From positions 1 to 37,014 of the IMG/VR virus record IMGVR_UViG_3300044846_000885: DNA of 37,014 bases, one strand, 5' to 3'. Below are positions 1 through 35,505 of this stretch, piece by piece. Below the pieces are notes generated by a model. It worked only from the letters and a program-made list of their open reading frames with translations, was not told the origin of the DNA and did not search any database. The DNA comes from a virus. A program made the translations under genes and the position numbers. Positions within the stretch are counted from its first letter, which is position 1; each line of letters begins with the position of its first letter.

Positions 1-1
1 T

Positions 2-244
2 GATGATGTATTCATTGTGACAGCGCGACAGCAGAGCAATGGAGCTATTGTATATGAGATGGCTCAAAAGCTCGGCATACCTAAGGAGAATGTGTATTTT
101 ACAGGTGGCAGAGACAAGTGGCAGATGCTTAGAAGGCTGAGAATAGAGCGCCATTACGACAATAATGCAGAGCAGATTTCCCTAATCAAGGAAAATACAG
201 AGATTGATGCCGTGAAATTCGGAACAGATGTACATAAAGAGTAA
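2..244 (+). CDS. HAD-like phosphatase, C-terminal part (phage A)
   Basis: The reading frame is open to the left edge, so this is the last 80 codons of a longer gene; a GTG at 17 is only an internal codon. The fragment begins DDVFIVTAR and continues with a stretch around KENVYFTGGRDKW and IERHYDNN. That pattern (sheet ending in T/S-A-R, then a lysine after GG-D, then HYDDN-type acidic residues) is typical of motifs II-IV of the haloacid dehalogenase superfamily, including phage nucleotidase-like members. The substrate cannot be told. It ends 15 bases before the scaffold-like gene. No counterpart is seen in phage B, where 30085-30486 holds this position. Family call moderately sure. Confidence 0.6.
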   Translation, partial: DDVFIVTARQQSNGAIVYEMAQKLGIPKENVYFTGGRDKWQMLRRLRIERHYDNNAEQISLIKENTEIDAVKFGTDVHKE

Positions 245-259
245 ACAAATTAGAGTAAT

Positions 260-838
260 ATGAACGAGAATTTCAAAAAGGTAATGGATTCCTTAGCTGA
301 ATTCAAGACTATCCTTGCCGGGCGAAAAGTATCTGCGCAATTTGGTGAGGCAGTCCTGGAGGATGGTACAGAAATCCGTTGGGAAGGCGTTGATTTAACG
401 CCAGGAATTCCTGTTTTTGTTGTTGCTGAAGGCGAAGAGATCCCTGCACCTGAGGGCACACATCGCTTAGGTGGTGACATGGCAGGTATATCCATTGTGG
501 TTGATGCAGAGGGCAGAATCGCAGAATTAATTGATGAGCGTGAAGGTAGCGGAGGCACACCAGCTGAAGATGCAATGTCTGCTGAGCAGGTTCGTTCAAT
601 TGTGGAGGGTGAGGTTTCAACTTTTGGCAAGGCATTCAAGTCTATGTCAGGAATTGTTGAGGCCATCGCTAAGCAAAATGATGAACTTAGCAATGAGCTT
701 GCTGATTTGAAAGCTGAATTCGCAGCCTACAAAAACGCACCATCAAATGAGGTCAAAGAGGCGGAGAAATTTGCCAAGAAAAGTAATGCAGGTATGACCA
801 GCCGGCAAATGTTTCTTTTAAATAATATGAAAAAATGA
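260..838 (+). CDS. Capsid assembly/scaffold-like protein (phage A)
   Basis: A 192-residue acidic protein. The first ~90 residues form a small beta-rich domain (LEDGTEIRW, TPGIPVFVV, EEIPAPEGTHRLGG), followed by a Gly/Glu-rich linker and a helical, coiled-coil-prone C-terminal half (about 110-160) ending in a basic tail. The same plan occurs in the 187-residue protein at 30498-31061, in the same place just before the capsid gene. A head scaffold or capsid-assembly role is inferred from position, charge and coiled coil; I know no catalytic motif in it. Its stop overlaps the capsid start (ATGA, 835-838), which suggests translational coupling. Confidence 0.65.
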   Translation: MNENFKKVMDSLAEFKTILAGRKVSAQFGEAVLEDGTEIRWEGVDLTPGIPVFVVAEGEEIPAPEGTHRLGGDMAGISIVVDAEGRIAELIDEREGSGGTPAEDAMSAEQVRSIVEGEVSTFGKAFKSMSGIVEAIAKQNDELSNELADLKAEFAAYKNAPSNEVKEAEKFAKKSNAGMTSRQMFLLNNMKK

Positions 839-1806
839 GCTTAAAAAAGTTTATCAAATCTAAGTTTGACTATGATGTGTCTGAACTTAGCCCATACGTT
901 GATGATTCGCGTGAGGACCTAATTGTGCGTTCAGTAACTGAAGCCGAAACATTACAGTATATCACCATTCAGGAAGGTATCAAAGGAACTGAGGACCTTA
1001 AGCTGTTGGATGATTCAATCATCTACCAGGAAGCCAATTGTTCAATGAGCCCTGATGGAGATACTATCTTTTCAGATAGACCTTTGACAGTTAACGCTAT
1101 TGGGTACATGAAGAGATTTTGCCAAAAGGATTTGGCTGGATTGTGGACACAGTTGGCTCTTCGTCCAGGTGCAATGGCTGAGGATAAGGAGCTACCTTTC
1201 GAAGCACAATTGACTGACTATTTATTGAGGTTGCATGCTCGCGAATTGGACAAATTAATTTGGCAGGGTAATGTCGCTACAGGTACAGGCAACTTGCAAT
1301 GGATGAATGGATTCCGTCAATTCCTTACAACTGCCAATGGAGCTGTTGATTTGAATACATCCTCAACTGCAGCAATTAACTCATCCAATGCATTTGATGT
1401 ATTCTATGAGTGTTTCATCAACACACCTGCACAGGTAGCTGAGCAAACTGATTTAGTATGTTTCACAGGCCGTGAAAACTTCAACTACTTATTGAAGAAT
1501 TTAGTTGATCAAAATTTCTACCATTACAGCCCTGAGACAATTGCGTCAATGACTGAGTGTTTGGTACCAGGTACTAACATGCGAGTGGTAAAAGTGAACG
1601 GATTGAATGGCTTAGATAACATCTACACAGGTCGTTCATCTCATTTCTTCTTTGGAACTGACCTTTCATCTGATTTCGAATCATATGATTTGTGGTATTC
1701 ATTTGATGATGATGTAATCTACATTCGTTCTAAATTCCGTGCAGGGGTACAGGTTCCTTTCTTAGATGAAATCGGAGTATGGAATGGTACAGGATCTCCT
1801 AACTAA
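835..1806 (+). CDS. Major capsid protein (phage A)
   Basis: A 323-residue protein placed between the scaffold-like gene and a putative tail-tube gene, the normal place for the major head subunit. The C-terminal part (DDDVIYIRSKFRAGVQVPFLDEIGVW) parallels the end of the 317-residue protein at 31080-32033, and both carry a central W-x-GN motif (IWQGN here, IWTGN there), so I take the two as diverged homologues. It probably has the HK97 fold, judged from length and context and not from a specific motif. It starts by 4-base overlap with the preceding gene. The family is typical of Bacteroidota phages and prophages. Confidence 0.75.
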   Translation: MSLKKFIKSKFDYDVSELSPYVDDSREDLIVRSVTEAETLQYITIQEGIKGTEDLKLLDDSIIYQEANCSMSPDGDTIFSDRPLTVNAIGYMKRFCQKDLAGLWTQLALRPGAMAEDKELPFEAQLTDYLLRLHARELDKLIWQGNVATGTGNLQWMNGFRQFLTTANGAVDLNTSSTAAINSSNAFDVFYECFINTPAQVAEQTDLVCFTGRENFNYLLKNLVDQNFYHYSPETIASMTECLVPGTNMRVVKVNGLNGLDNIYTGRSSHFFFGTDLSSDFESYDLWYSFDDDVIYIRSKFRAGVQVPFLDEIGVWNGTGSPN

Positions 1807-1834
1807 TTGTTAAACTAAACTAAAAGATAGAGAG

Positions 1835-2368
1835 ATGGCATGTAATATGACAACAGGGTACAATGACAGAACATGTACCAATGGTAAAGGTGGGATACTA
1901 AGCGTGTTATTATTCCCTGTGGGGAATATCCAAACACCTGTAACCATCGCAGCGAATGAGATCACATCCCTAACTGTAACCGGTGAGGTATTTCTTTACA
2001 AGTTAAAGAGTAACCTATCCAGCTTTACAGCACCAATCAAAGTGAACAAAGAGAATGGTACACTTTGGTATGAGCAAAGCCTCTCAATGATCCTGGCATC
2101 CGATACTAAGGAGCTAAGGTCAGAGATACACTTGCTTGCTCAGAATGAGGTTTGCTGTTTGGTGGAAAAAGCCAATGGCACATGGGTTGCATTGGGGTTG
2201 AATGAAGGCCTACAGGTGGCAGATGCCAATGAATATACATCTGGAGTACTTAAATCAGACCGTCAAGGGCATGTAATTGTTCTTAATGGTATGGAAAATG
2301 ACGAGGTACCTGATGTAGCTGATGGTGTAATAACCACATTGCTATCACAGCAGTCACCTGCAATCTAA
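1835..2368 (+). CDS. Putative major tail protein (phage A)
   Basis: A 177-residue, mostly beta-type protein. The N-terminus (MACNMTTGYNDRTCTNGKGG) resembles that of the protein at 32088-32651 (MSCDISQGRLEACKDAVSG), and both lie directly downstream of the capsid gene and directly upstream of an intrinsic terminator. A strong, separately terminated gene next to the capsid gene fits an abundant structural product; I infer the tail-tube subunit. A head decoration protein is the main alternative. The 28-base gap before it contains an AG-rich GATAGAGAG just upstream of the ATG. Confidence 0.55.
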   Translation: MACNMTTGYNDRTCTNGKGGILSVLLFPVGNIQTPVTIAANEITSLTVTGEVFLYKLKSNLSSFTAPIKVNKENGTLWYEQSLSMILASDTKELRSEIHLLAQNEVCCLVEKANGTWVALGLNEGLQVADANEYTSGVLKSDRQGHVIVLNGMENDEVPDVADGVITTLLSQQSPAI

Positions 2369-2391
2369 TATATCTCATAAATTCTACCGAG

Positions 2392-2417
2392 GGGAGGGCA
2401 ATGTCCCTCCCTTTTTT
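2392..2417 (+). terminator. Intrinsic terminator after putative tail gene (phage A)
   Basis: A perfect 7-bp stem (GGGAGGG 2392-2398 with CCCTCCC 2405-2411), a 6-base loop and a run of six T. It lies 24 bases after the stop at 2368. A terminator sits at the same relative position in phage B (32685-32718). Confidence 0.9.
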
Positions 2418-2430
2418 GTAAATTAGAGCC

Positions 2431-2685
2431 ATGAAAAAGTTGAAAATCAAAAAGGAATGTATCGGATTAAAGGTCAGAGGTGGCTTTTTAAACAAGTGGT
2501 ACATAATTGAGGAGGGCAATGAGGAGCTGTATTGGCAGATGGGTATCTTAGATATTTTTGAGAAAACAGAGCCTGCAATTGTTAAAAAAACTAAGGATGT
2601 TAAGGATAGAAAAAAACAATCAGAGTACGTTGATAGTAACGGTATCGGAATTGACAACGATTCCAGCCCCATACTATCTGTTTGA
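2431..2685 (+). CDS. Hypothetical protein, 84 aa (phage A)
   Basis: A small basic protein that I do not recognise. The start lies 13 bases after the terminator T-run. The first ~50 residues look ordered (KVRGGFLNKWYIIEEGNEELYWQMG); the rest is a charged Lys/Glu/Asp-rich tail. Its 3' end overlaps the next gene in another frame. In phage B the corresponding place is empty, so it is an extra between the tail-tube and neck genes. A head or neck role would be only a guess from position. Confidence 0.6.
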   Translation: MKKLKIKKECIGLKVRGGFLNKWYIIEEGNEELYWQMGILDIFEKTEPAIVKKTKDVKDRKKQSEYVDSNGIGIDNDSSPILSV

Positions 2686-2965
2686 ATTCATTGAGGAGCA
2701 AACACAGGAGGCATTGTATTGCATATTGACCAACATCAGTACAGGCATTCCTAGATATGACGAGTTTACGCTGGTTGATGGGGTTGATGTTACATTCCCA
2801 TATGCTGGTTTTTACACATACAAGATATACCAACAGACAAGCTCATCCAATTTGGACCCTGCGCTATCTGATGGAATGGTGGAGGAGGGCCGTGCCCATG
2901 TTTATGAGATGGATAGTCCATCCAATTATTATGATTACAATGTAGCTAATTTCGTTTATGAGTAA
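2630..2965 (+). CDS. Small beta-rich structural protein before portal (phage A)
   Basis: The frame is open from an ATG at 2558, but the first ~24 residues overlap the previous gene and look like read-through of its Lys-rich 3' end. I prefer the TTG at 2630, giving MIVTVSELTTIPAPYYLFEF; ATGs at 2597 and 2558 are alternatives. The pattern YYLFEF-EE-T-EALY, RYDEFTL, FPYAGFYTYKIYQQ, SDGMVEEGRAHVYE is a recurring Bacteroidota phage family found just before the portal. Phage B has a diverged relative at 32756-33109. It is probably a minor head or neck protein; the exact role is unknown. It overlaps the portal start by 8 bases. Confidence 0.6.
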   Translation: MIVTVSELTTIPAPYYLFEFIEEQTQEALYCILTNISTGIPRYDEFTLVDGVDVTFPYAGFYTYKIYQQTSSSNLDPALSDGMVEEGRAHVYEMDSPSNYYDYNVANFVYE

Positions 2966-4967
2966 GGTATTGAACGTCCAATTTTCTAAGTCATTCACAG
3001 TTCCTGTGGAGGAGCTTGATAAGGGCCAAGGGTTTGTAAAGTGGGGAAAGAAAAATGACTATCCATTCTTTATCATTGATTTGCTACATGGCTCTGCTTG
3101 GCACCAGGGTATCATTAAAAACAAAAGCTACTATATTTCAGGCGGTGGCCTTGAGGTGGTGAGTGGAGATGCACAGCCATTCCTTAATAATGAGTTTAGG
3201 GATTTTGACATGAATGAGATAGCTCAAAGAATGACCTTTGATTTTGAGCTGTTTGGTGCCATGTGTGTTAAGGGTACTTGGAATAGAGAAGGTACTAGGG
3301 TCGTGGCATGGGAGCATCTGAACATTGATGCATGCAGGCTGTCTGAGGATGAGCGCACACTGTATGTATCAGATGATTGGAATGCCAGGAGACAAACACC
3401 TGAGGACACAAATTTCCGCACATATCCAGCCTTGGATGATAACAATCCACATGGTGCATTCTTTATATATTACAAGGAGCCAAGCAAACAAGCCAAGGGT
3501 GAAAAGGGAATATATCCAAAGCCTCCATATGTGGGTGGAATCACAGCAATACAGACAGATTGCGACATATCTCGCTGGCATATGTATGAAATTTCCAATG
3601 GGTTTAAAGCTGGCACCTTGATAAATCTGCCGGGAGGTTTTCCGGAGACAGCTGAGGAGGAGCGCAAAATAAAGGAGCAGATTAAGGGGCCTGTGCAATC
3701 CATTGAATCAGCTGGTGAAATAATAATCACATTCAGCCAAACCAAGGATGATGCACCATCTGTAATGCAGCTGTCGGGCAATGACCTTGATAAACGCTAT
3801 GAGATGACAGAGAGAGCTGTGCAGCAGAACATATTGGTAGCTCACAGCATCACAGCACCTACTTTGTTTGGTATCATTCAGCAGGGCTCATTCAATGCAG
3901 CGGAATCTGCTGATTTGTTTGAGATATTCAAGGTGACCTATGTGAGCTCAAGGCAAAAGCAAATAGAATGGATGATAAACTACATGGCCCAATTAAGTGG
4001 CTCATCTGCAATACTCAAGCTCGTTGATGTTACACCTATCGGAACTGTACCACAAGTTGATGCAGCCGCACCTGTAGCTGATGTGGCAGCGGACCCATTG
4101 GCAGCTGGAGAGATTGATGTTGCTAAAACAGCATTGAATGGTGCACAGATTGCATCAATTATTGATGTAGTGGCAGCCATCAAGGAGGGAGTATTAACAC
4201 CTGAGGCAGCGCTACAGGTACTATTGGCATCATTCCCTACCATTGCAGAGGCACAAGCTCGCGAGATAGTGGGATTGGACAGTGCAGGCATGGGTTTCTG
4301 TAACCACAAACAGCTGTTTTCGGACCAAAGCATTGAGCTATTTGAACAGCATGGCGAGCTCAAGGAGCAATTTGAGATAATTAAAAGCGTACCTGTGGAA
4401 TGGGATACACCATCTGAGGAGGTATTCAGCAGAGAACAGCAGCTATTTGATGAGATTGGTCAAATAATGGTGCAGCTTACTGACCTTGAGAAGGCTGTAT
4501 TGACCTTGCTACAGGAGGATGATGAGGAGGCAGGATCAATTGCCAAGGCAACAGGCGAGCCATTGCAGGTAATTGTTCAGGTGATTGAGAAATTAGTGAT
4601 TCTTGGCCTTTATGAAAAGCCATCTGTTGATGCTGAGGGTGTGCGTACAAGTGGAACAGTCACACCAACAGGTGGGCAGGTGGTGAATCAAATACCAGGA
4701 GCAGAGCAGCCACAGTATGAGATACGATACAGCTATGAAACGAGAAAGGATGTACCACCTGTAAAAACCAAATCAAGGAATTTCTGCCTGGCATTACTCA
4801 GATTGGATAGGCTATATTCCAGGGATGAGCTCTCCATGATTAGCTCACAGGAGGGCAGAGATGTTTGGAGATACAGAGGTGGATACTATACCAATCCGGA
4901 CACAGGTAAAACCACACCATGGTGCCGTCACATATGGATGCAGAATCTCGTAAAACGTAAACAATGA
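2958..4967 (+). CDS. Portal protein with extended C-terminus (phage A)
   Basis: A 669-residue portal, the dodecameric ring through which DNA enters and leaves the head. The core (about 1-350) matches the phage B portal at 33102 in layout: KKNDYPFFIIDLLHGS, then VQQNILVAHSITAPTLFGI, where phage B has GHNVTSPLLFGVSS. After an Ala-rich linker (about 365-440) come a winged-helix-like segment (LTDLEKAVLTLLQ through KLVILGLYE, about 510-555) and a Cys/His-containing end domain (NFCLALLRLDRLYSRDEL, WRYRGGYY, PWCRHIW) that phage B shares in altered form. The linker and helix segment make it 84 residues longer than the phage B copy. It overlaps the adaptor gene by 4 bases (ATGA). Confidence 0.85.
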   Translation: MSKVLNVQFSKSFTVPVEELDKGQGFVKWGKKNDYPFFIIDLLHGSAWHQGIIKNKSYYISGGGLEVVSGDAQPFLNNEFRDFDMNEIAQRMTFDFELFGAMCVKGTWNREGTRVVAWEHLNIDACRLSEDERTLYVSDDWNARRQTPEDTNFRTYPALDDNNPHGAFFIYYKEPSKQAKGEKGIYPKPPYVGGITAIQTDCDISRWHMYEISNGFKAGTLINLPGGFPETAEEERKIKEQIKGPVQSIESAGEIIITFSQTKDDAPSVMQLSGNDLDKRYEMTERAVQQNILVAHSITAPTLFGIIQQGSFNAAESADLFEIFKVTYVSSRQKQIEWMINYMAQLSGSSAILKLVDVTPIGTVPQVDAAAPVADVAADPLAAGEIDVAKTALNGAQIASIIDVVAAIKEGVLTPEAALQVLLASFPTIAEAQAREIVGLDSAGMGFCNHKQLFSDQSIELFEQHGELKEQFEIIKSVPVEWDTPSEEVFSREQQLFDEIGQIMVQLTDLEKAVLTLLQEDDEEAGSIAKATGEPLQVIVQVIEKLVILGLYEKPSVDAEGVRTSGTVTPTGGQVVNQIPGAEQPQYEIRYSYETRKDVPPVKTKSRNFCLALLRLDRLYSRDELSMISSQEGRDVWRYRGGYYTNPDTGKTTPWCRHIWMQNLVKRKQ

Positions 4968-5473
4968 ACTACCTAATTTCAGCGGAAAACATCCGCAAGC
5001 TGGGGTTAATCCATCCCAATACAGATACAAAACTGCTCACTGTAATCATTAAGCGGTCCCAGGATATGCACATCCAGCCAGCAACAGGCACACCTTTGTA
5101 CAAGGCTCTGCTGCTTAGGGTACAGAATAATGATTGGACCAATCCGGATTATGTGACATTGATGAATGATTATGTAATTCCTTGCCTGGTGGCGTTCGTT
5201 GATTACAGGAGTGCTACATTGCTCAATGAAAAGCTCACCAACAAGAGTGTAGGCCGGCAGTCTGATGAGACAATGACAGCCAATGATGACAGCCAAAGCA
5301 AGGTAATGCGGGACCAGCTTAGAAAGGATGCATATTTTTACAAGGAGCGATTAATTGGATACCTTAAGGATGATGGTGGTGTGATGTTTCCGGAGTATGT
5401 ACAGAGCCCATGTGAACATGAGGCAGTTAGAAAGGACAGAACAGGGTACACACCAACAGGCTGGATAGTATGA
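4964..5473 (+). CDS. Head-tail connector/adaptor (phage A)
   Basis: A 169-residue, largely helical protein directly after the portal and translationally coupled to it. It resembles the 166-residue phage B protein at 34859-35359 in layout: LISAENIRKL/LITRDDLVRL at the start, DMHIQPATGTPLYKALL/DIYIQNYLGTNLLNRFK, a central PCLVAFVDYRS/PMLIHWAMVEY helix, and a C-terminal FPEY segment ending in a GW motif. These features fit the adaptor that joins the portal to the neck. The name is inferred from position and family, not from catalysis. Confidence 0.75.
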   Translation: MNYLISAENIRKLGLIHPNTDTKLLTVIIKRSQDMHIQPATGTPLYKALLLRVQNNDWTNPDYVTLMNDYVIPCLVAFVDYRSATLLNEKLTNKSVGRQSDETMTANDDSQSKVMRDQLRKDAYFYKERLIGYLKDDGGVMFPEYVQSPCEHEAVRKDRTGYTPTGWIV

Positions 5474-5592
5474 AATTCAAAATATCACAGAAACAAATTG
5501 ACAAATTAAAGCAATACCTAAATGCTAAGGACATTAAACCAGGTAATGCGCGAGCTCAGCGAGATAGCAAGCGCACACCGGCAAATAAATGA
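5470..5592 (+). CDS. Small basic protein, 40 aa (phage A)
   Basis: A 40-codon frame starting by ATGA overlap with the adaptor stop (MKFKISQKQIDKLK...), rich in Lys and Arg and ending PANK. Phage B has an equally placed 49-codon basic frame at 35356-35505, also coupled to its adaptor, and both run into the following gene in another frame. Conservation of position, size and charge is the evidence that it is real. Function unknown; a DNA- or neck-associated peptide is possible. Confidence 0.5.
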   Translation: MKFKISQKQIDKLKQYLNAKDIKPGNARAQRDSKRTPANK

Positions 5593-6106
5593 ATTTTTCC
5601 AGGGTGATTTCCTTGATGCCATCAGCCGAGATGCTGCTCAATATCCATTGATGGTGGTCACATTGGCACCTGGTAATGTCAATGAAACAAGCGTGCAGAT
5701 GAGTGCTACAATTACTATCTGTGACAAGTACAATCATTCAGAATATAGGCAGATAAATGAGGTACATTCTGACTGCTTGAGCATAGTGAATGATTTGAAT
5801 ACCACATTCAGACAGTACAGGTGGACGGAATTTGTGGATATCACTGATGATATAACCATTGAGCCATTCATTAATGAGGGGCAGGATATGGTGGCAGGCT
5901 GGACCATGTCGGTTAATTTTGATGTGTATAATGAATTGAATTGGTGTGATATTCCATATGATAATTATGATTTTGAGAATGGTCCTGCAGCACCTGAAGC
6001 ATGTGGTGACATGTACACAACATACCAGCTATACGTTAATGGAGTGCTGGAGGATACGTTCAGCATGTCCACAACAGAGAATAATACCATAAACATTACA
6101 TTATAA
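5522..6106 (+). CDS. Tail-completion/terminator-like protein (phage A)
   Basis: A 194-residue protein that shares its plan with the 151-residue protein at 21523-21978 of phage B: an N-terminal helix, a QGD/QGS turn, a YPLMVVTL/FPLVHLIV strand, then DLNTTFRQYRW/TQLTVLMRLYE and IEPFINEGQDMVAGWTM/IEPFTERFENYLAGMTM. Phage B keeps it beside its terminase and tail genes, so the module has moved relative to the head genes. The extra C-terminal ~45 residues (about 150-194) look like an added beta domain. The ATG at 5522 fits the length of the homologue better than the ATG at 5546. Role inferred. Confidence 0.6.
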   Translation: MLRTLNQVMRELSEIASAHRQINEFFQGDFLDAISRDAAQYPLMVVTLAPGNVNETSVQMSATITICDKYNHSEYRQINEVHSDCLSIVNDLNTTFRQYRWTEFVDITDDITIEPFINEGQDMVAGWTMSVNFDVYNELNWCDIPYDNYDFENGPAAPEACGDMYTTYQLYVNGVLEDTFSMSTTENNTINITL

Positions 6107-6651
6107 TGGCAGTAACTACCATAAACATAATAAGCACAGCGAACAAGGGCCTATTTGCTCAGACAGCCAATAGCCCAACATTGACATCCACCACAGCTGA
6201 GGGTACTTTGATTGATGGAGGTGTTGGATCTCTGAGCGTGCCAGCCAATGGCTTCGCTGTGGGTGATTCATTTCAAGTACAAATGGGTGGAATGATGAGC
6301 GCCAAGAACAATGATACCATCAGAATTAGGTTGAAAAGTGGCTCTGTTGTGTTGGCAGATTCGGGCACATTGACAATGCCAGGAATCACCAATCAGGTAT
6401 GGTACATGACTGCACATTTTACTGTGAGGTCCATTGGAGCAGCAGGGGTGGCATCAATTGTCACTGTTGCACAGCTGCATGTATTAAAGGCAGCAGGCGG
6501 AACGCAGGAGGGCTTTGCCTGGAATACTGTAGATAGCACCACCTTTGATACAACTATTCAAAATACATTGAATATTACAGCTCAATTCAGCAGCAATAGT
6601 GGATTGAATAGCATATACAGTGATATATTTATCCTCAATAAGATATATTAA
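6106..6651 (+). CDS. Putative surface/receptor-binding-like protein (phage A)
   Basis: A 181-residue Thr/Ser/Gly/Ala-rich protein made largely of predicted beta strands ([61 protein letters not shown]). Its composition and position, between a tail-completion gene and a fibre gene, suggest a jelly-roll-like fibre or decoration component. I see no counterpart in phage B. Overlaps with both neighbours (stop/start TAATG) point to one transcript. Confidence 0.5.
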
Positions 6652-7511
6652 TGTTTAATATCTTTGATTACCTTAAGAGCCAGATATTAGGCAAACAAGA
6701 TGCCCTGGTATCAGGCACCAATATAAAGACCATCAACGGATCATCTGTATTAGGTTCGGGTAATTTAGTGGTATCAGGCAGCGGTGTGCCGGATGGTGAC
6801 AAAGGTGATATCACTGTTAGCGGTTCCGGTAGCATATGGACCATTGATAACGGAGCTGTGACAGATGTCAAGGTAACTGATGTGGCTGCTACAAAGGTAA
6901 CTGAGGACAGCAGTCATAGGTTTGTAACTGATGCAGAAAAAACCACCTGGAATGGCAAGCAAGCTGCCCTAGTATCAGGCACAAATATCAAAACAATCAA
7001 TAGCACATCCTTATTGGGCAGCGGTGATATAGCCATCAATGGAAATCCATCATTGGGAATTGTGACCGGTACCAATGTTACAGGTACCACAGCATTTACA
7101 AAGAGCGCCACAATCACAATACCAGCCAATACAATTAGTGCATTGAGCCTGCTGGAGATTGAGGCGAGAGCCATAAGGGTAGCAGTTACAACAGGAACTA
7201 TTGGATTTCAAATGTATATTAATACATCAGATTCATTGACAGGGGCAACTTTGTTAGGGGCATTTTCAACTTTAACAAACACTAACTGGTTCTCACAGGC
7301 TCGAAGGTCGTTATTTATCAATCCAACTACAAATACTTTAACAAGCGTAAACGCGGGCGCTGTGGGAAACACTGATTTTATAAATACAGGTACAAATACG
7401 GTGTTAACGTTTGACGAAACACAAACCTATTACCTAATTTTCGCGCTTCAACCTTCAAGTACGGCAAGCACTTCGGCGGTTCAATATGCTTTTGCAAAAC
7501 GATATGTATAA
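6651..7511 (+). CDS. Tail fibre protein, junction of phage A and phage B sequence
   Basis: A 286-residue fibre-type protein. It carries two collar-like repeats, [25 protein letters not shown] (about 14-43) and [25 protein letters not shown] (about 102-131), separated by [13 protein letters not shown] and [15 protein letters not shown], then a conserved beta domain from about residue 140. The same architecture is in the fibre gene starting at 36288. From 7245 to 7371 the DNA is identical to the window end, and it stays close (5 mismatches in 81) back to 7165. So the N-terminal half is phage A and the C-terminal end is phage B. It may be an assembly chimera or a true recombinant. Confidence 0.8.
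7245..7371 (+). repeat. 127-bp exact direct repeat, copy 1 (circular closure)
   Basis: Identical to 36888-37014, at a constant offset of 29,643 bases. It lies inside the fibre coding sequence, and mismatches begin at once to its left (7244, 7241). The repeat stops exactly at the window end. This is what a de Bruijn assembler leaves when a circular or terminally redundant sequence is cut, with k = 127. Confidence 0.9.
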
Positions 7512-8525: not shown

Positions 8526-9394
8526 TAACTAAGATATCGCGCAACGTTCACGAAATCAAAATCAAGTCTCAGGAATTCCGTTTAGCGGTGCTTTCGGATA
8601 TTCATTGGGATAACCCTAAATGCGACCGAGATAAGTTAAAGAAAGACTTGGATTACTGCCTAAAACACGAAATACCCGTCTTTATAAACGGCGACTTTTT
8701 TTGTTTGATGCAAGGGCGCGGTGACCACAGGAGAAATAAGAGCGACATAAGACCCGAACATAACAACGCCCGTTATTTAGATTCAATTGTAGATACTGCG
8801 GTTGAATGGTGGACGCCCTACGCGCACTTACTTACGGTAATTGGTTACGGAAATCACGAAACGGGAATTATTAAATATCAAGAAACAGACCTTTTAGCGC
8901 GTTTTGTAGACCTTCTTAACTACAAGTGCGGTACTAACATTCAAACGGGCGGTTACGGCGGTTGGTTGGTGCTTAAATTCATTATAGGGGAGGAAAGTTA
9001 TAAAAAGACCGCTAAGATTAAAATCAAATATTTCCACGGCTCAGGTGGTGGCGGTATCGTAACCAAAGGAGCGATTAACTTAACCCGTGCTTTGGAACTC
9101 TACGAAGACATGGACGTATTTTGTATGGGACATATCCACGAAAACTGGGCGCGAAACGATATGCGCGAAAAATTGGTTCACTCATCGATTAAAGGCTACC
9201 ACATCGAACACAAGCATATACACCACATGATAACGGGAACGTATAAAGACGAATATGTAGATGGATTTGGCGGTTGGCATATCGAAAGGGGTGCGCCTGT
9301 TAAGATATTAGGCGGGCGAATTTTGAACATTTCCGTTAAAAGAACCAGTAAAGCCGAGATTAAAAACGTAGATTCTATTAGCTTTCCGCGTTAA
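8522..9394 (+). CDS. Calcineurin-like metallophosphoesterase
   Basis: A 290-residue protein with the ordered metal-binding motifs of the family: SDIH (D26, H28), NGDFF (D58), GNHE (110-113), an FHG near 171 and GHIHE (203-207). Members hydrolyse phosphodiesters or phosphomonoesters with two metal ions (phage examples include nucleases and phosphatases); the substrate here cannot be read from sequence. It is the last gene before the 9.4-kb promoter gap, so it probably belongs to the transcript coming from the fibre/lysis region. The family assignment is sure, the role not. Confidence 0.9.
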   Translation: MITKISRNVHEIKIKSQEFRLAVLSDIHWDNPKCDRDKLKKDLDYCLKHEIPVFINGDFFCLMQGRGDHRRNKSDIRPEHNNARYLDSIVDTAVEWWTPYAHLLTVIGYGNHETGIIKYQETDLLARFVDLLNYKCGTNIQTGGYGGWLVLKFIIGEESYKKTAKIKIKYFHGSGGGGIVTKGAINLTRALELYEDMDVFCMGHIHENWARNDMREKLVHSSIKGYHIEHKHIHHMITGTYKDEYVDGFGGWHIERGAPVKILGGRILNISVKRTSKAEIKNVDSISFPR

Positions 9395-9427
9395 TTTGTT
9401 AAAAAGTTAAAAAAAGTTGTTTAAAGA

Positions 9428-9460
9428 TTTGGATAAGTTATTTCTTATCCTTTATATTTG
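9428..9460 (+). promoter_or_regulatory. Bacteroidota-type promoter of the early genes
   Basis: TTTG (9428-9431), a 21-base spacer, then TATATTTG (9453-9460), an exact match to the TTTG-N(19-21)-TAnnTTTG pattern of Bacteroidota primary-sigma promoters. It lies in the 88-base gap before the gene at 9483. The -7 region TTATATTTGTGTATAA closely resembles that of the promoter at 14425. Confidence 0.8.
9431..9450 (+). promoter_or_regulatory. Palindromic operator inside the early promoter
   Basis: GGATAAG (9431-9437) and its exact reverse complement CTTATCC (9444-9450), separated by TTATTT. The palindrome fills almost all of the spacer between the -33 and -7 elements, where a bound dimer would block RNA polymerase. 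No T-run follows, so it is not a terminator. The binding protein is unknown; the small proteins at 16382 and 11082 are possible candidates. Confidence 0.6.
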
Positions 9461-9482
9461 TGTATAACAAAAAACAAAGGAC

Positions 9483-9731
9483 ATGAAATTAGGAGACAAA
9501 ATCAAAACGTTTGAAGTAAAACAAATCGTAAAAGGTTATTCGATTAGTTACAATTCAAAAGGTGTTAAAACACGAACAATAATTGATTTTTATTTATTGC
9601 TCTCGGATAATGGGCAAGAGCGAGTTTTAGCATCTAACAAAAAATCGTTATCAGATTGCGAAACATACCGACCTACATTTGGTCACAAATCAAAGTTTAT
9701 TCAGTGGAATCAATTTAACATTGTAAAATAA
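9483..9731 (+). CDS. Hypothetical early protein, 82 aa
   Basis: First gene behind the 9.45-kb promoter. A basic beta-type protein (MKLGDKIKTFEVKQIVKGYSISYNSKGVKTRTIIDFYLLLSDNG...). I do not recognise the family. The first position in the early unit makes a host-takeover or regulatory role plausible, but this is position only. Codon use matches the neighbours. Confidence 0.65.
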   Translation: MKLGDKIKTFEVKQIVKGYSISYNSKGVKTRTIIDFYLLLSDNGQERVLASNKKSLSDCETYRPTFGHKSKFIQWNQFNIVK

Positions 9732-11015: not shown

Positions 11016-11100
11016 GGTGTGTAATTTGATTGCCACGCTCATAATAGGAATAGTAATAGGAATGATAATAGGATACGAGATATGGAACAACGAGAATTAA
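10993..11100 (+). CDS. Tiny membrane protein, 35 aa
   Basis: A 35-codon frame overlapping both neighbours, with a strongly hydrophobic centre (LIATLIIGIVIGMIIGYEIW) that should span the membrane once. GxxxG-like spacing (GIVIGMIIG) could allow dimer packing. It fills the 66-base gap between the larger genes. Support is moderate; function unknown. Confidence 0.45.
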   Translation: MDVQLISEVCNLIATLIIGIVIGMIIGYEIWNNEN

Positions 11101-11465
11101 TAGAGCACGTTAGAGAATTGATAGACAAGTACGACCTGAAAAACCCTTGTAGGCTTCAAAAGTACACCTATCCGCGTTATTATCTATTTGCGGTACTTAA
11201 ACAAAACGCTCGAATGCCTTGGGTAGAAATTGCGCGGATGTTTGAAAAGAACCATTCAACGGTAATTCACGGTTTAGATGTACACGATATGCTAACCAAA
11301 ACAAAGGACTTAGGATACAGGTACTTCACAGCGTCAATACGCGACGAAATCAAGTTACAAGAAAAAGACGAAGAAAGAGACATAGCAAAAGACGTCCTTT
11401 CGTGTAGAACTTACAACCAAATAAAACAATTACAACAAAAAATAAAAGACGGATATTATGATTAA
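11082..11465 (+). CDS. DnaA domain IV-like DNA-binding protein
   Basis: A 127-residue protein whose centre (about 31-75) reads YYLFAVLKQNARMPWVEIARMFEKNHSTVIHGLDVHDML. This matches the helix-turn-helix and signature helix of the DnaA C-terminal domain, where [RN]HSTV-H contacts the DnaA box. The AAA+ ATPase domain of DnaA is missing, so it cannot load helicase alone. It lies about 0.9 kb before the predicted initiator gene and could bind the phage origin, bind DnaA boxes as a competitor, or regulate early genes. Domain call fairly sure, role inferred. Confidence 0.75.
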   Translation: MEQRELIEHVRELIDKYDLKNPCRLQKYTYPRYYLFAVLKQNARMPWVEIARMFEKNHSTVIHGLDVHDMLTKTKDLGYRYFTASIRDEIKLQEKDEERDIAKDVLSCRTYNQIKQLQQKIKDGYYD

Positions 11466-11871: not shown

Positions 11872-12063
11872 ATGATTATTTTTCAAACAAGGAACGAAAA
11901 AGGCGGCAGGTTAGAGTTATCATTTGATGAAATAGAAGGTCATATGTATATTGATTCTTATGATTTTAAAAACCAATTAGTCAATAGTGAAACCATTTAT
12001 GAGGAAGACATGAAAAAATTTCTTCAATTCATTAAAATTAATTGCGATGCAAGGATGGATTAA
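11872..12063 (+). CDS. Hypothetical protein, 63 aa
   Basis: A small acidic protein starting MIIFQTRNEKGGRLELSFDEIEGHMYID. I chose the ATG at 11872; a GTG at 11824 would put codons through the structured RNA and its T-run and gives an odd leader. It overlaps the initiator gene by 17 bases. No family recognised. Confidence 0.55.
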   Translation: MIIFQTRNEKGGRLELSFDEIEGHMYIDSYDFKNQLVNSETIYEEDMKKFLQFIKINCDARMD

Positions 12064-12709
12064 AATACATCGTAAGTTTTTAGACTGGCAATGGTTTAAT
12101 AAAAGCGAGGCGGTTCATTTGTTTGTTTATATGCTTTTAAAAGCGAATCATAAGGACTCACAATGGCAAGGTATTGAGGTTAAACGAGGTGAGTTTATTT
12201 CGTCTTTAGGTAAGATTTCAAGCGACACAAATATCAGTTCTCAGTCGATTAGAACGCTTCTAAAAAAGCTCGAAAACACGAACGAAATTATAGTAAAATC
12301 AACAAACAAATACACACAGATAACTATCTGTAAATATGACTGTTACCAATTGGATTTAGAAGATACTAACAAACAACTAACAAACAATCAACAAACAACT
12401 AACAATCAACTAACAACAAACAAGAATGATAAGAATAAAAAGAATGAAAATAATATACCTGAAATCGAGGATTTTGTGGCTTATGCTTTAGAGCAATTCC
12501 CAAAGGTAGAAGAAGACGAAGTAAGATTGAAATACAAAAGTTGGTTAGTCAATGGTTGGTGTACTAATAGGGATAATAAACTACGACCAATTAAGAACTG
12601 GAAATCAACTTTACTAAACACCCTTCCGTACATGAAGGAAACAGTTATAACTTCGGACGACCGTTTAGTAGCCCACATTAAAAAAACACTTAATCTTAAA
12701 CACCTATGA
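12047..12709 (+). CDS. Replication initiator-like protein (winged helix, O/DnaD type)
   Basis: A 220-residue protein. Residues ~1-100 form a winged-helix domain as in phage replication proteins: GWIKIHRKFLDWQWF, EAVHLFVYMLLKANHK, VKRGEFISSLGKISSDTNISSQSIRTLLKKLENTNEI. Then follow an Asn/Thr/Gln/Lys-rich linker (about 105-138) and a C-terminal part (EDFVAYALEQF..., LRPIKNWKSTLLNTLPYM) resembling helicase-loader regions. It is followed by a helicase-like ATPase (4-base overlap), the layout of lambda O/P and DnaD/DnaB modules. The linker DNA contains direct repeats, see the iteron entry. It should open the origin and recruit helicase. Confidence 0.75.
   Translation: MQGWIKIHRKFLDWQWFNKSEAVHLFVYMLLKANHKDSQWQGIEVKRGEFISSLGKISSDTNISSQSIRTLLKKLENTNEIIVKSTNKYTQITICKYDCYQLDLEDTNKQLTNNQQTTNNQLTTNKNDKNKKNENNIPEIEDFVAYALEQFPKVEEDEVRLKYKSWLVNGWCTNRDNKLRPIKNWKSTLLNTLPYMKETVITSDDRLVAHIKKTLNLKHL
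12365..12419 (+). repeat. Five 11-bp tandem iterons, probable replication origin
   Basis: Five head-to-tail units at 12365, 12376, 12387, 12398 and 12409 with consensus ACTAACAAACA: two perfect, the others with one or two changes (ATCAACAAACA, ACTAACAATCA, ACTAACAACAA). Eleven is not a multiple of three, so each unit is read in a new frame; the period is kept in the DNA and not in the protein. About one helix turn per unit puts binding sites on one face. It lies inside the initiator gene, as in lambda ori within gene O. Confidence 0.6.
12422..12457 (+). other. AT-rich 9-mer array, possible unwinding element
   Basis: Directly after the iterons, four 9-base units (AAGAATGAT, AAGAATAAA, AAGAATGAA, AATAATATA) with only five G and no C in 36 bases. 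These are codon-phased (Lys-Asn-rich), so protein repetition is another explanation. Next to iterons, such a tract fits the strand-opening element of an origin. Confidence 0.45.
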
Positions 12710-13596
12710 TTTTACCAAAAGGACACGCGACGCAGTACTTGACCGATTTTAAAGACGGACGAATAAAACGCGGATTAGGTATCGACACGGCGTTAGATGA
12801 CTATTTGCTTTTCAAACCTAAACAACTTTGCATAGTGCTTGGACATGACAACGTAGGTAAGTCGTATTTTATGGAGTGGTACTTTCTTGTTCTCGCTCTT
12901 AAACATAATTTGAAGTTTACCTTGTGGATGGGTGAGAATAATTCAGGTCAAGTTATGCGCGATTTAATCCAAATGTACGTAGGTGTTAAATTCGAGGAAC
13001 TAACCCACGAACAAATAAGACGAGCGGAAATGCGTTTAGAATATAATTTTACCTTTGTGGATAATTCACGGCTTTACACGCCCGACGATATTTTAGCGAT
13101 ATTTGAAAAGACGGATTCAGACGTTTGCTTTATTGACCCGTTTACAGGACTTGACCGAGGTTTTAACCATTCGGATAATTACGACTTCTTAAACAAAGCG
13201 AGATTATTTTGCAATAAGACAGGAAAGACTTTGTACCTAAGTACCCACCCAACAAGCGAAAGCGGACGAAGCGGAAACGTTTACCCAGCTAAACACGAAT
13301 TCGAAGGGCATTTAAGACCGCCAATGAAAGCACACATCGAAGGCGGTAAGCCATTCTTAAACCGATGCGATGACATGATAGTTATTCACCGACTTGTGAA
13401 ACACGAAACTATGAAATTTCACACCATGGTTGACGTAGAGAAGATAAAAGACCGCGACACTGGAGGACAACAAACCCAGTTTGATTCGCCGTTAATGTTT
13501 GACTACAATTACGGGTTGGGTTTTACAATGGGCGGAATAGATGCAATTGCCCCGCATCGAAGAACGAAGAAAAACACGAACGAATTACCTTTTTAA
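12706..13596 (+). CDS. RecA-fold replicative helicase-like ATPase
   Basis: A 296-residue single-domain P-loop ATPase. Walker A GHDNVGKS (46-53) and Walker B DVCFIDP (139-145) are clear, followed by STHPTSESGRSGN and a C-terminal DDMIVIHRLV / DVEKIKDRDTGGQ segment of the kind seen in DnaB/RecA-fold (AAA_25, RepA-like) helicases. The DnaB N-terminal primase-binding domain is missing. Coupled to the initiator by a 4-base overlap, it should unwind DNA at the phage origin. Whether it acts alone or helps the host DnaB is unknown. Confidence 0.8.
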   Translation: MILPKGHATQYLTDFKDGRIKRGLGIDTALDDYLLFKPKQLCIVLGHDNVGKSYFMEWYFLVLALKHNLKFTLWMGENNSGQVMRDLIQMYVGVKFEELTHEQIRRAEMRLEYNFTFVDNSRLYTPDDILAIFEKTDSDVCFIDPFTGLDRGFNHSDNYDFLNKARLFCNKTGKTLYLSTHPTSESGRSGNVYPAKHEFEGHLRPPMKAHIEGGKPFLNRCDDMIVIHRLVKHETMKFHTMVDVEKIKDRDTGGQQTQFDSPLMFDYNYGLGFTMGGIDAIAPHRRTKKNTNELPF

Positions 13597-16651: not shown

Positions 16652-17182
16652 ATGCAATGGATTAACGTACTATCAAAGCATCACAAGGAATGGATTAACA
16701 TTGTCCGTTCGTTTGGAGAGTGTCCTTTAGCTGAAGACATTGTACAGGAAATGTACCTTCGCATTCACGACGCCAATTCGGGTGAAAAAGCGGTAATAAA
16801 CGACGAGCCGAACCGCGCTTTCGTGTGGGTAATTCTCAAAAATACGTTCATAACTTACGAGAAAGAGAAAACCAGGATTCAAAAGGTTTCGATTGACGAA
16901 CTTAACTACCTTTGCATCGAGGAAAGCGAACCACAAAAACACGAAGCGATTAGTAAAATAGACCAAAAGCTACAAAACGAGTTATCTAAATGGCATACTT
17001 ACGACCGTGAACTATTCAAAGTGCATACCTTAAAGGGTAAATCAATGCGTGAAATAAGCAACGGTGCGAACATAAGCCTATCGAGTATATTTAACACGCT
17101 TAAAAACTGCAAAACACGGCTTAAACAAAAGATAGGAGAGGATTATTTAGACTATAAAAACCAAGAATATGAGAGGATTTAA
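16652..17182 (+). CDS. Phage RNA polymerase sigma factor (ECF-like)
   Basis: A 176-residue protein with the two conserved regions of small sigma-70 factors: region 2 at about 12-60 (CPLAEDIVQEMYLRIHDAN, then RAFVWVILKNTFITYEKEK) and region 4 at about 115-160 (DRELFKVHTLKGKSMREISNGANISLSSIFNTLKNCKTRLKQKI), the second containing the -35-type helix-turn-helix. Sitting alone between a terminator and the packaging genes, it is the natural candidate to redirect host RNA polymerase to late promoters. No late consensus could be fixed by eye. Family fairly sure. Confidence 0.78.
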   Translation: MQWINVLSKHHKEWINIVRSFGECPLAEDIVQEMYLRIHDANSGEKAVINDEPNRAFVWVILKNTFITYEKEKTRIQKVSIDELNYLCIEESEPQKHEAISKIDQKLQNELSKWHTYDRELFKVHTLKGKSMREISNGANISLSSIFNTLKNCKTRLKQKIGEDYLDYKNQEYERI

Positions 17183-30497: not shown

Positions 30498-31061
30498 ATG
30501 AACGCAAAACAAGCAATAAAAGAAATCAAGACGCTTTTAGGAATGGAAGTGAAACTTGAACAAGCCCGTTTAATAGACGGAACAACCGTAATCGAAGCAC
30601 CTTCTTTTGAAGCGGGCGCAGAAGTATTTGTAGTAACCGAAGAAGGAAACGTACCGTTGCCTGTTGGTGAGTACGAAATGGAAGGCGGGGAATACATTCT
30701 TGTAGTTACCGAAGAAGGTATCATTTCCGAAATCAAAGAAAAGATGGAAGAAACCGAGGAAGAAGTAACCGAGGAAGTCGCTACCGAAACTGAGGAAGAA
30801 ATGTCTACCGAAGAAAGACAGCCTAAAAAGACTATCGAATCCATTATCAAGGAAACGTTGTTCTCAGAGGTTGCAAAAATGCGCGAAGAAAACGAAGCGT
30901 TGAAAGCGGAATTAAACGCCATTAAGACGGAATTAAGCACACAAAATAGCGTTAAACCTATTTCTTATAATCCTGAAAACGAAAAGCCCGTACAAGTATT
31001 CCGATACGAAAAACAAAAGGCTCAAAGTTCTCTAGACCGAGTTTTAAATAAATTGTATTAA
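30498..31061 (+). CDS. Capsid assembly/scaffold-like protein (phage B)
   Basis: A 187-residue acidic protein with the same plan as phage A 260-838: a small N-terminal beta domain (LEQARLIDGTTVIEAPSFEAGAEVFVVTEEGNVPLPVGEYEM), a Glu/Thr-rich linker (about 76-105), a coiled-coil segment (MREENEALKAELNAIKTEL) and a basic tail (DRVLNKLY). It directly precedes the capsid gene. Scaffold function inferred from place, acidity and coiled coil. Confidence 0.68.
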   Translation: MNAKQAIKEIKTLLGMEVKLEQARLIDGTTVIEAPSFEAGAEVFVVTEEGNVPLPVGEYEMEGGEYILVVTEEGIISEIKEKMEETEEEVTEEVATETEEEMSTEERQPKKTIESIIKETLFSEVAKMREENEALKAELNAIKTELSTQNSVKPISYNPENEKPVQVFRYEKQKAQSSLDRVLNKLY

Positions 31062-31079
31062 TCTTAATTTTTTAACAAA

Positions 31080-32033
31080 ATGCCTACAAACGTAGTAAAC
31101 ACTACTTCTTATGCTGGTGAATTCGCAGGGAAGTACATTGCCGCCGCTCTTTTGAGTGCAAACACTATCGAGAATGGTGGTGTAACCGTTATGCCTAACG
31201 TAAAATACCGAAGCACGGTAAAAACTTTAAGCGCAACAGGATTGGTTAAGGACAGCACTTGCGACTTCGACCCTACAGGGGAAATCGCTCTTACTGACCG
31301 AGTAATCGAACCTAAGTACCTACAAGTTAACGCGACTATCTGTAAAGACGAGTTCGAAGACGATTGGGAAGCTATCCAAATGGGATATTCCGCATTCGAT
31401 ACTTTGCCTAAAAACTTTACTGACTTCTTTATTGCGCGTGTTCTTGGAACAATGGCAGAAAGCACCGAAACTTCTATTTGGACAGGTAACGGAGCGACTA
31501 ACGGTGAATTTGACGGTCTTTTCGCTTTGGCTCTTTCTGAGGTTGGAACAGGTATTCCTGTTGGACAAGGTGTTGGAGGTACAACTATCGACCCTACTAA
31601 CGTTATCGACGAAATCGGTAAAGTAGTTGACGCGCTTCCTTCAAGACTTTACGGAAAAGAAGGTTTGAAAATCTATGCTCCTCAAAACGTAGTTCGTGCT
31701 TACGTTCGCGCATTGGGTGGATTCGCTGCGGGTGTTGGTGCTGCGGGTATCAACAACCAAGGAACTACTTGGTACAATGGTAACGCTAACGCTTTAACTT
31801 TCGACGGTATTCCATTGTTTATGGCAAACGGAATGGATTCTAACACCATGTTGGCAACTACAAAAGAAAACTTGTTCTTTGGAACTGGTCTACTTTCTGA
31901 CCATAACGAGGTTCGTGTTCTTGACATGGCTAACTTGGACGGGTCTAAAAACGTTCGTTTCGTAGCACGTTACACAGCGGGAACTCAAATCGGTATCTTG
32001 GAAGACTGCGTTGTTTACGACGTATCTCTATAA
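31080..32033 (+). CDS. Major capsid protein (phage B)
   Basis: A 317-residue protein between scaffold gene and terminator: YAGEFAGKYIAAALLSANTIENGGVTVMPNVKYRSTVKTL, IWTGNGATNGEFDGLF, a Gly-rich middle, and a final VRFVARYTAGTQIGILEDCVVYDVSL that parallels the end of the phage A capsid protein. Codon choice differs from the neighbours (more GCT, GGT, CTT and GTT), as expected of a very highly expressed gene. Probably the HK97 fold. A strong terminator follows 8 bases after the stop. Confidence 0.8.
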   Translation: MPTNVVNTTSYAGEFAGKYIAAALLSANTIENGGVTVMPNVKYRSTVKTLSATGLVKDSTCDFDPTGEIALTDRVIEPKYLQVNATICKDEFEDDWEAIQMGYSAFDTLPKNFTDFFIARVLGTMAESTETSIWTGNGATNGEFDGLFALALSEVGTGIPVGQGVGGTTIDPTNVIDEIGKVVDALPSRLYGKEGLKIYAPQNVVRAYVRALGGFAAGVGAAGINNQGTTWYNGNANALTFDGIPLFMANGMDSNTMLATTKENLFFGTGLLSDHNEVRVLDMANLDGSKNVRFVARYTAGTQIGILEDCVVYDVSL

Positions 32034-32041
32034 TCATTAAC

Positions 32042-32066
32042 GGGGGTGTAAAAGCCCCCTATTTTT
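32042..32066 (+). terminator. Intrinsic terminator after capsid gene
   Basis: GGGGG (32042-32046) pairs with CCCCC (32055-32059), loop TGTAAAAG, then TATTTTT. It separates the capsid gene from the putative tail gene. Confidence 0.85.
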
Positions 32067-32087
32067 AACTTTTTAATACATTTACCT

Positions 32088-32651
32088 ATGTCATGTGATA
32101 TTAGCCAAGGCAGATTAGAAGCCTGTAAAGATGCGGTTTCGGGCATCGATGCAATATACATAATAAACTACGGGATTAATTACCCGACAGATGTAACATT
32201 TGATACTACGCCTCCAACCCCTGGTTATGAAGACGTAATTACAGCAGTTGCGGGTGTTACTACCCTTTACAAATTTGAGTTAAAAGGCGCAAACTCATTC
32301 GAGCAAACAATCCAATCAAGCCGTGACAACGGTACTACGTTCTTCGAGCAAGTAGTAGTCGCTCAGTTGAAGCGTCAAGACATCGCTACTCATAAAACGG
32401 TTAAGTTACTTTCTTACGGACGTCCTCACATCGTTGTAAGAGATAGAAACTTGAACTTCTTTTTGGCGGGTCTTGAAAGAGGATGCGACGTAACAGCGGG
32501 TACTTTCTCTACTGGTTCGGCTTTGGGTGATTTTAGCGGTTATAATTTAACGTTCACGGGTATGGAAAACATCCCCGCGCCGTTCTTAGATTGTAACGAC
32601 GAAGCATCTTTAGCGGCATTGTTTGGTGGTGCATCAATCGACGATAACTAA
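32088..32651 (+). CDS. Putative major tail protein (phage B)
   Basis: A 187-residue beta-type protein (MSCDISQGRLEACKDAVSGIDAIYIINYG..., LKGANSFEQTIQSSRDNGTTFFEQVVVAQL, LERGCDVTAGTFSTGSALGDFSGYNLTFTGMENIPAPFL). The last segment, with G-x-GDF-GY-LTF-G-E, is the kind of closing motif seen in tail-tube subunits of Bacteroidota phages. It is the counterpart of phage A 1835-2368. It has terminators on both sides, thus a separately tuned, abundant transcript. A head decoration protein is the alternative. Confidence 0.58.
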   Translation: MSCDISQGRLEACKDAVSGIDAIYIINYGINYPTDVTFDTTPPTPGYEDVITAVAGVTTLYKFELKGANSFEQTIQSSRDNGTTFFEQVVVAQLKRQDIATHKTVKLLSYGRPHIVVRDRNLNFFLAGLERGCDVTAGTFSTGSALGDFSGYNLTFTGMENIPAPFLDCNDEASLAALFGGASIDDN

Positions 32652-32684
32652 AATAGGCTCTTAATTCTCCTAATACTTAGTTTA

Positions 32685-32718
32685 AGGGGGGTAGACAAAC
32701 GGTCTGCTCCCTTTTTTT
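32685..32718 (+). terminator. Intrinsic terminator after putative tail gene (phage B)
   Basis: AGGGGGGTAGAC (32685-32696) pairs with GTCTGCTCCCT (32702-32712), with two G-U pairs and one bulge, loop AAACG, then seven T. Same relative place as the terminator at 2392 in phage A. Confidence 0.85.
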
Positions 32719-32755
32719 GTTTTAAAACAATTCGTCTTTAAATAGTTATATAGAT

Positions 32756-33109
32756 ATGCAAGTAATAACACCTATTGCCGCACAGAAAACACTTAGTATC
32801 GTTCCGAGATACGAAAACGCGGACGCTTGTATATTTCGAGATGACCAAACAAACACCGAACAGACATTTGCGATAGTATCATTTACCGAATTAGAGTACT
32901 ACTTTGAGCTTGTAATCGACGTCGATGTCGACTTAATCGAAAACCATTGGTACGATATGTTCCTATTTGATGGGGCTGTAATGACCTTTTACGACAAGGT
33001 ATTTGTAACGTCTCAGAACTTAGACACGTTTAGCGTGAATAATTACCCAAATAACACGTCGCAGTACATCCCAAATGTGACACAAAACACGTACATAACC
33101 TATGAATAA
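32756..33109 (+). CDS. Small beta-rich structural protein before portal (phage B)
   Basis: A 117-residue acidic protein (MQVITPIAAQKTLSIVPRYENADACIFRDDQTNTEQTF...), in the same place as the phage A gene at 2630 and with the same FxLFDGAV--FYDKVFVTSQ-like layout, though much diverged. It overlaps the portal start by 8 bases, as in phage A. Probably a minor head or neck protein; the exact role is unknown. Confidence 0.6.
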   Translation: MQVITPIAAQKTLSIVPRYENADACIFRDDQTNTEQTFAIVSFTELEYYFELVIDVDVDLIENHWYDMFLFDGAVMTFYDKVFVTSQNLDTFSVNNYPNNTSQYIPNVTQNTYITYE

Positions 33110-35359: not shown

Positions 35360-35505
35360 AAGCATACAAGCCTAAACATACGAACGTACAAAAATTAACA
35401 AGTTACATCAAAACGATAAGTAATGAAGACTATATCCGAGTTTCCACAAGCGACAAGCCTAACAAATCAAGACCTATTATTAATAAGCCAGTACGACGGA
35501 GTTAG
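35356..35505 (+). CDS. Small basic protein, 49 aa
   Basis: A 49-codon frame (MKAYKPKHTNVQKLTSYIKTISNEDYIRVS...) coupled by ATGA overlap to the adaptor stop, equivalent in position to phage A 5470-5592. It overlaps the next gene by 83 bases in another frame, so only the first ~22 codons occupy unshared DNA. The shared position in both phages supports it. Function unknown. Confidence 0.45.
   Translation: MKAYKPKHTNVQKLTSYIKTISNEDYIRVSTSDKPNKSRPIINKPVRRS

Follow-up and report, generated by a model that had tools for sequence, protein, structure and literature searches.

The initiator gene examined here lies at positions 12047-12709 on the plus strand of the window, which is the whole 37,014-nucleotide stretch of viral DNA that was analysed. 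It encodes a 220-amino-acid DnaD-like or O-like phage replication initiator. The protein matches PHROG 2514, named 'DnaD-like helicase loader' (E=2.5e-30), as do all 37 of the 37 relatives that were aligned. It also matches several replication-initiation families, including PHROG 345 ('replication initiation O-like', E=7e-9). Searches with the whole protein gave nothing above the cut-off in Pfam and NCBIfam, and a sequence search of solved structures yielded no convincing match.

Structurally, the AlphaFold2 model of the protein consists of two domains joined by a linker. The N-terminal domain (residues 1-101; plus strand, 12047-12349) is a winged helix, with pLDDT values of about 90 over residues 11-100. 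It is the proposed iteron-binding domain, and the proposed recognition helix spans about residues 65-77. Structure alignment matches this domain with the initiator domains 4pql, 4pt7 and 5kbj over about 90-100 residues with Z scores of 8-9. CRP-type winged helices score equally, and the modelled fold alone would not prove that the protein is an initiator. Among predicted viral proteins, an E. coli phage O protein fragment matches the N-domain over 82 residues (TM score 0.89 by fragment length), and many other structural matches bear the name replisome organizer. The linker (residues 105-134; plus strand, 12359-12448) is rich in Asn, Gln, Thr and Lys and is predicted to be disordered (pLDDT below 50). 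The C-terminal domain (residues 139-220; plus strand, 12461-12706) is a separate unit predicted with moderate confidence, and some relatives that share the N-domain and repeat array have an unrelated domain in its place.

The start of the next gene (plus strand, 12706-13596) overlaps the end of the initiator gene by 4 bp. Its product is a RecA-fold or DnaB-like ATPase and thus a candidate replicative helicase or loader. The initial annotation had a helicase encoded at this place, which agrees with matches to the primase/helicase families PHROG 18375 and 239 (E about 3e-18), although the Pfam support is weak (DnaB_C, E=0.054). A helicase or loader gene likewise follows the initiator in most annotated relatives. 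About 0.6 kb upstream of the initiator, at 11082-11465 on the plus strand, lies a gene for a small DnaA domain-IV protein (Bac_DnaA_C, PF08299, E=1.8e-7). Genes of this type occur in 8 of the 10 records searched, the window included, and are close upstream of the initiator in the relatives of about 30 kb. A DnaA domain-IV protein (gp012) is also annotated near the replication gene of Cellulophaga phage phi18:3. Elsewhere in the early region, the gene at 16652-17182 encodes a sigma-factor-like protein (PHROG 1740, E=3e-7; weak by Pfam), which is possibly a phage transcription switch.

Five 11-bp direct repeats occupy positions 12365-12419 on the plus strand, all in the same orientation and entirely within the initiator gene, as the initial annotation had described. 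The units begin at 12365 (ACTAACAAACA), 12376 (ACTAACAAACA), 12387 (ATCAACAAACA), 12398 (ACTAACAATCA) and 12409 (ACTAACAACAA). Tandem Repeats Finder reports the array with a period of 11 and 4.7 copies (12365-12416, 87% matches), and its score of 83 is the highest among the 28 rows for the window. A search of the window for 11-mers with at most one mismatch to ACTAACAAACA found none outside the array. In the 72 nucleotides that follow the winged-helix domain, the fraction of matches at lag 11 is 0.72, compared to 0.55 in synonymous-codon shuffles that leave the encoded protein unchanged (p=0.004).

The array adjoins a putative AT-rich unwinding tract at 12422-12457 on the plus strand. Four 9-mers composed of A, T and G had been claimed directly after the repeats. 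Three of these are copies of the AAGAAT type (AAGAATGAT at 12422, AAGAATAAA at 12431 and AAGAATGAA at 12440), whereas the fourth (AATAATATA) is degenerate; Tandem Repeats Finder gives a period of 9 and 3.7 copies. This 36-bp tract has a GC content of 14% and is the least stable 36-bp segment between positions 12000 and 13000. Only 0.13% of the windows in the whole record are less stable. With the 11-bp array and this weakly paired tract, the winged-helix initiator gene very probably carries a phage replication origin in its own middle.

Selection on the repeats and the tract acts at the level of DNA. Among 64 close relatives, the ratio of observed to expected synonymous diversity falls from 0.62 in the N-domain to 0.18 over the array and 0.11 over the tract. 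Codons are fixed position by position (K120 is AAA in 58 of 58 relatives, and K126 is AAG, N125 is AAC and N127 is AAT in 63 of 63 each), such that the same residue has a different fixed codon depending on where it stands (K120 versus K126, N125 versus N127). In Solobacterium phage SMO_1P (L164:1204-1380), the reading frame ends inside the array and none of the three frames is open after this point, but 11-12-bp units and AAGAA motifs continue in the non-coding DNA past the stop. Only this one phage shows such an arrangement, and its stop may reflect damage to the gene. The SMO_1P initiator is reduced to the winged helix, and the array/AAGAA region is followed by a helicase-loader gene.

These data bear on the possibility that the repeats merely encode a low-complexity Asn/Gln/Thr linker, arising by slippage or by selection for a flexible spacer, and have no function as DNA. 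The composition and predicted disorder of the encoded segment are what such a spacer would show. However, a period that is not a multiple of three and that exceeds the codon-preserving null, codons frozen in 64 relatives, and an array that persists past the SMO_1P stop codon all argue against this explanation, to which we give almost no credence. In addition, quite different residues are encoded at this place in other phages (for example VQRLSN and SKGQAK), while the 11-bp period is unchanged. The earlier proposal that a period unfit for codons reflects selection on DNA is thus upheld by the null, the frozen codons and SMO_1P.

Relatives of the initiator were drawn from viral contigs, in which 550 were seen, and from named phages to give 98 distinct members, and 30 representatives with less than 70% identity in the N-domain were kept. 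Over these 30, the mean match fraction at lag 11 is 0.53 versus 0.40 for the null, and lags 11 and 22 are the only ones that exceed the null by more than 0.1. A second set consisted of 14 named phages, which were picked for host diversity with the linkers disregarded. The top lag is 11 in 12 of them, and the other two have 23-bp repeats. The latter are the initiators of Pseudoalteromonas phage SL25 and Vibrio phage 1.064.O (L167:1216-1290 and L168:1219-1295), which carry their repeats at the same place. A spacing of about 12 bp is found in three further members (L032, L033 and L134), and the 11-bp spacing is therefore not absolute across the family. The expectation that the position of the array would be conserved despite changes in its sequence was confirmed in that the 11-bp period follows the winged helix across diverged relatives while the repeat word differs. 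A relative with the same protein and linker that lacks repeats was not clearly seen among the 98 members; the weakest array has about two units (L132), and a few have the 12- or 23-bp spacing. Many phages with relatives of this initiator thus appear to be organised alike but to differ in the word that is repeated. Beyond the case of phage L described below, the literature that was searched holds no prior statement of a family-wide 11-bp rule or of a shared AAGAAT tract, which is not in itself proof of newness.

The word ACTAACAAACA of the window is replaced by words of the GCAAACGAAT type in Vibrio phages, by GGGCAAGCAAA in Cellulophaga phage phi18:3, by CAACAAATCAA in a Staphylococcus phage, by GTCCAACGGTT in Shigella and E. 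coli phages including Sf6, and by ACCAGCAATCG in the relative L138. Similarity between words tracks identity between N-domains, with 10.2 of 11 positions shared above 80% identity and 6.6 of 11 (chance level) below 40%, for pairs that are not independent since the members are related. Within the close clade, the same N-domain and array are combined with several unrelated types of C-terminal domain. The reverse combination is present in the recombinant L029, whose C-domain is 82-85% identical to those of L025 and L094, but whose winged helix is only 42-44% identical and is accompanied by another repeat word. Here the winged helix and the repeats were swapped together and the C-terminus was kept. 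Because of these two patterns, the N-domain and its repeats appear to move as one cassette, as has been reported for plasmid pPR9 (PMC5703833).

The least expected result is that AAGAAT repeats recur beside the iterons in phages whose iterons are unlike one another. An exact 24-mer of the tract is present in nine viral contigs, and in eight of these it demonstrably lies in an initiator linker, including some where the initiator proteins are only 32-39% identical. In the ninth, the contig begins or ends at the match, so that nothing but the tract and the part downstream of it is present. Where the peptide of the tract is encoded elsewhere, other codons are used. Across 37 representatives, AAGAAT occurs 46 times versus the 12.6 expected from codon shuffles, a 3.7-fold excess; L026 and L030-L033 were excluded from this test as they were possibly retrieved via the peptide of the tract, which would introduce selection bias. 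In addition, the least stable 30 bp are located 40-160 nucleotides past the winged helix in 31 of 44 relatives.

One reading of this recurrence is that the AAGAAT tract is a separate shared element with a role beyond melting, which is kept across phages of different bacterial phyla with unrelated iterons. A conserved partner, such as the helicase, the C-domain or a protein resembling DnaD or DnaA, might recognise the tract once it is single-stranded and thereby determine on which strand and in which direction the helicase is loaded. We consider this reading unlikely, but far from negligible. It can be likened to the DnaD recognition element of Bacillus oriC, which consists of 5ˊ-TnnT-3ˊ pairs (PMC10201434). 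The lower strand of the tract has a T at every third position and is compatible with TnnT, but any DNA coding for Lys, Asn and Asp gives the same pattern. Because Lys, Asn, Asp and Glu codons all have a central A, a DnaA-trio or TnnT reading of the tract is an idea only.

The closest known counterparts of the window are found in enterobacterial phages. Gene 18 of phage L is reported to contain six 11-bp repeats as the likely origin of that phage, and the same paper remarks that initiators with only a distant relationship seem each to recognise a different set of iterons within the gene that encodes them (PMC8022706). The records of HK620 and Sf6 carry a rep_origin annotation at the same place in the gene ('putative' for Sf6). 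As in the window, phage L gene 18, HK620 O and Sf6 gene 43 have 11-bp repeats at the same place followed by AT-rich DNA, and the N-domains of ST64T, HK620 and Sf6 are homologous winged helices with 29-35% identity to that of the window. The phage L, HK620 and Sf6 origins differ in that their units have another word and form two groups with a spacer rather than one array, and their AT-rich tract is AATAATATAAATAAT-like rather than made of AAGAAT repeats. A further difference is that the downstream P gene of HK620 is annotated as a DnaB-like helicase. Six enterobacterial members (L159, L160, L161, L165, L171 and L172) have two groups of about two to three 11-bp units separated by a spacer of about 40 bp and followed by an AT-rich tract.

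The O genes of lambda and Stx phages also contain the origin, which in lambda comprises iterons and an AT-rich tract (PMC7466680), and the window is of the lambda type in its layout, with direct repeats inside the gene, a putative melting tract beside them, and a helicase or loader candidate next door. Lambda O differs in having four iterons of about 20 bp rather than five 11-bp units, which places the window outside a strict lambda O definition, and phage L gp18, a protein of the same kind as that of the window, is only 15% identical to lambda O (PMC8022706). Gene 38 of SPP1 contains oriL (PMC6316719), and the finding that a deletion of 80alpha ORF20 is not complementable in trans suggests that the origin lies within that gene (PMC5499656). 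Both resemble the window in that the initiator gene holds its own origin. The repeats of 80alpha gp20 are 15 bp long rather than 11 bp. We rejected ORF20 as a direct homologue, as the family profile gives no match on 80alpha gp20.

A parallel also exists in plasmids. Initiators of the pSK41-type RepA_N family have a winged-helix N-domain whose targets, the Rep boxes, are located centrally in the initiator gene itself; the origin encodes the linker and the C-domain interacts with primase, and pPR9 has a different, phage-like N-domain and origin within the same plasmid backbone (PMC5703833). The layout is alike, and the N-domain of the window resembles solved domains of this type, though CRP-type winged helices equally well. 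RepA_N plasmids have four Rep boxes rather than an 11-bp tandem array. The window protein has no significant sequence match to RepA_N and no Pfam match above the cut-off. Origins inside initiator genes are already well known, and the window adds another probable case.

It is highly likely that the array and the adjoining tract are the phage replication origin, embedded in the initiator gene, with a predicted sequence of binding by the N-domain, opening of the tract and recruitment of the helicase. We infer these steps and the use of the origin in vivo as follows. The winged-helix domain of the 12047-12709 protein would bind the five 11-bp units. The units are on the same strand at intervals of roughly one turn of the helix, which would place the bound proteins side by side along a single DNA face. 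The resulting nucleoprotein complex would then open the AAGAAT-rich tract. Recruitment of the helicase machinery would fall to the C-domain, with the RecA/DnaB-like ATPase of the following gene as its probable partner. The linker peptide would be a by-product of maintaining the DNA.

Tandem repeats serve also as operators and centromeres, and the same winged-helix protein might bind the array for autoregulation or partition while replication starts at some other site. The Foldseek matches include centromere-binding proteins with a winged helix, and the detrended GC skew minimum is at 8.9 kb, as this alternative might lead one to expect. However, all named family matches of the initiator are replication families, a helicase or loader gene is next in most annotated relatives, an AT-rich tract adjoins the array, and origins are annotated at the same site in HK620 and Sf6. 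The failure of trans complementation for the analogous 80alpha initiator deletion (PMC5499656) points in the same direction. We therefore judge such an exclusive role to be very unlikely, but the array may contribute to autoregulation in addition to its proposed role as the origin.

GC skew was rejected as a test of the origin. As the genes share one direction, the raw cumulative skew climbs along almost the whole window, and the detrended curve has its minimum at 8.9 kb, about 3.4 kb upstream. In seven relatives of about 30 kb, the detrended minima are scattered between about 7 kb before and 3 kb after the start of the initiator. The minimum that the initial annotation would expect near 12.4 kb is not seen in sharp form, and the spread among relatives is too loose to decide the matter. 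Near the detrended minimum, an intergenic region at 9394-9483 has a pair of minus-strand DnaA-box-like sites (9428 and 9459), in a window where the counts of such sites are at chance.

Those counts are relevant to another possible arrangement, in which the origin is at the array but is opened by the phage DnaA domain-IV protein or host DnaA, and the initiator is only a DnaD-like helicase loader. This would fit the name of PHROG 2514 and the frequent presence of a DnaA-C gene (8 of 10 records), close upstream of the initiator in the relatives of about 30 kb. However, the window has no excess of DnaA-box-like sites (44 versus 46 expected) and the array is free of them. The repeat words vary together with the winged helix of the initiator. 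The probability of this arrangement is accordingly very low, and opening by the initiator itself is the reading we prefer.

The circular 29.6-kb map assumed in the initial annotation does not describe the record as it stands. The segments 6690-7371 and 36333-37014, which would have to coincide in a closed circle, are only 76% identical over 683 bp. These tail-fibre-like stretches each end one of two diverged head modules (1-7511 and 30498-37014), whose capsid genes are at 835-1806 and 31080-32033 and whose portal genes are at 2958-4967 and 33102-34859. Close relatives are contigs of about 30 kb, three of which have identical ends of 123-127 bp, and they match mainly the second head module. For this linear record the evidence for a 29.6-kb circle is indirect, but the permuted relatives of about 30 kb support it. 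The record may be an assembly product in which two variants of the same circular phage were joined, or it may represent prophages in tandem.

For phages annotated with this 'helicase loader' family, the origin becomes readable from the gene itself, as the DNA after the winged helix would give the word that is bound as well as the tract that is unwound. The family also offers naturally occurring pairs of DNA-binding domain and target word, from which recognition rules might be derived and origins of uncultured phages predicted. Finally, the recurring AAGAAT tract poses a testable question as to what is recognised after the iterons.
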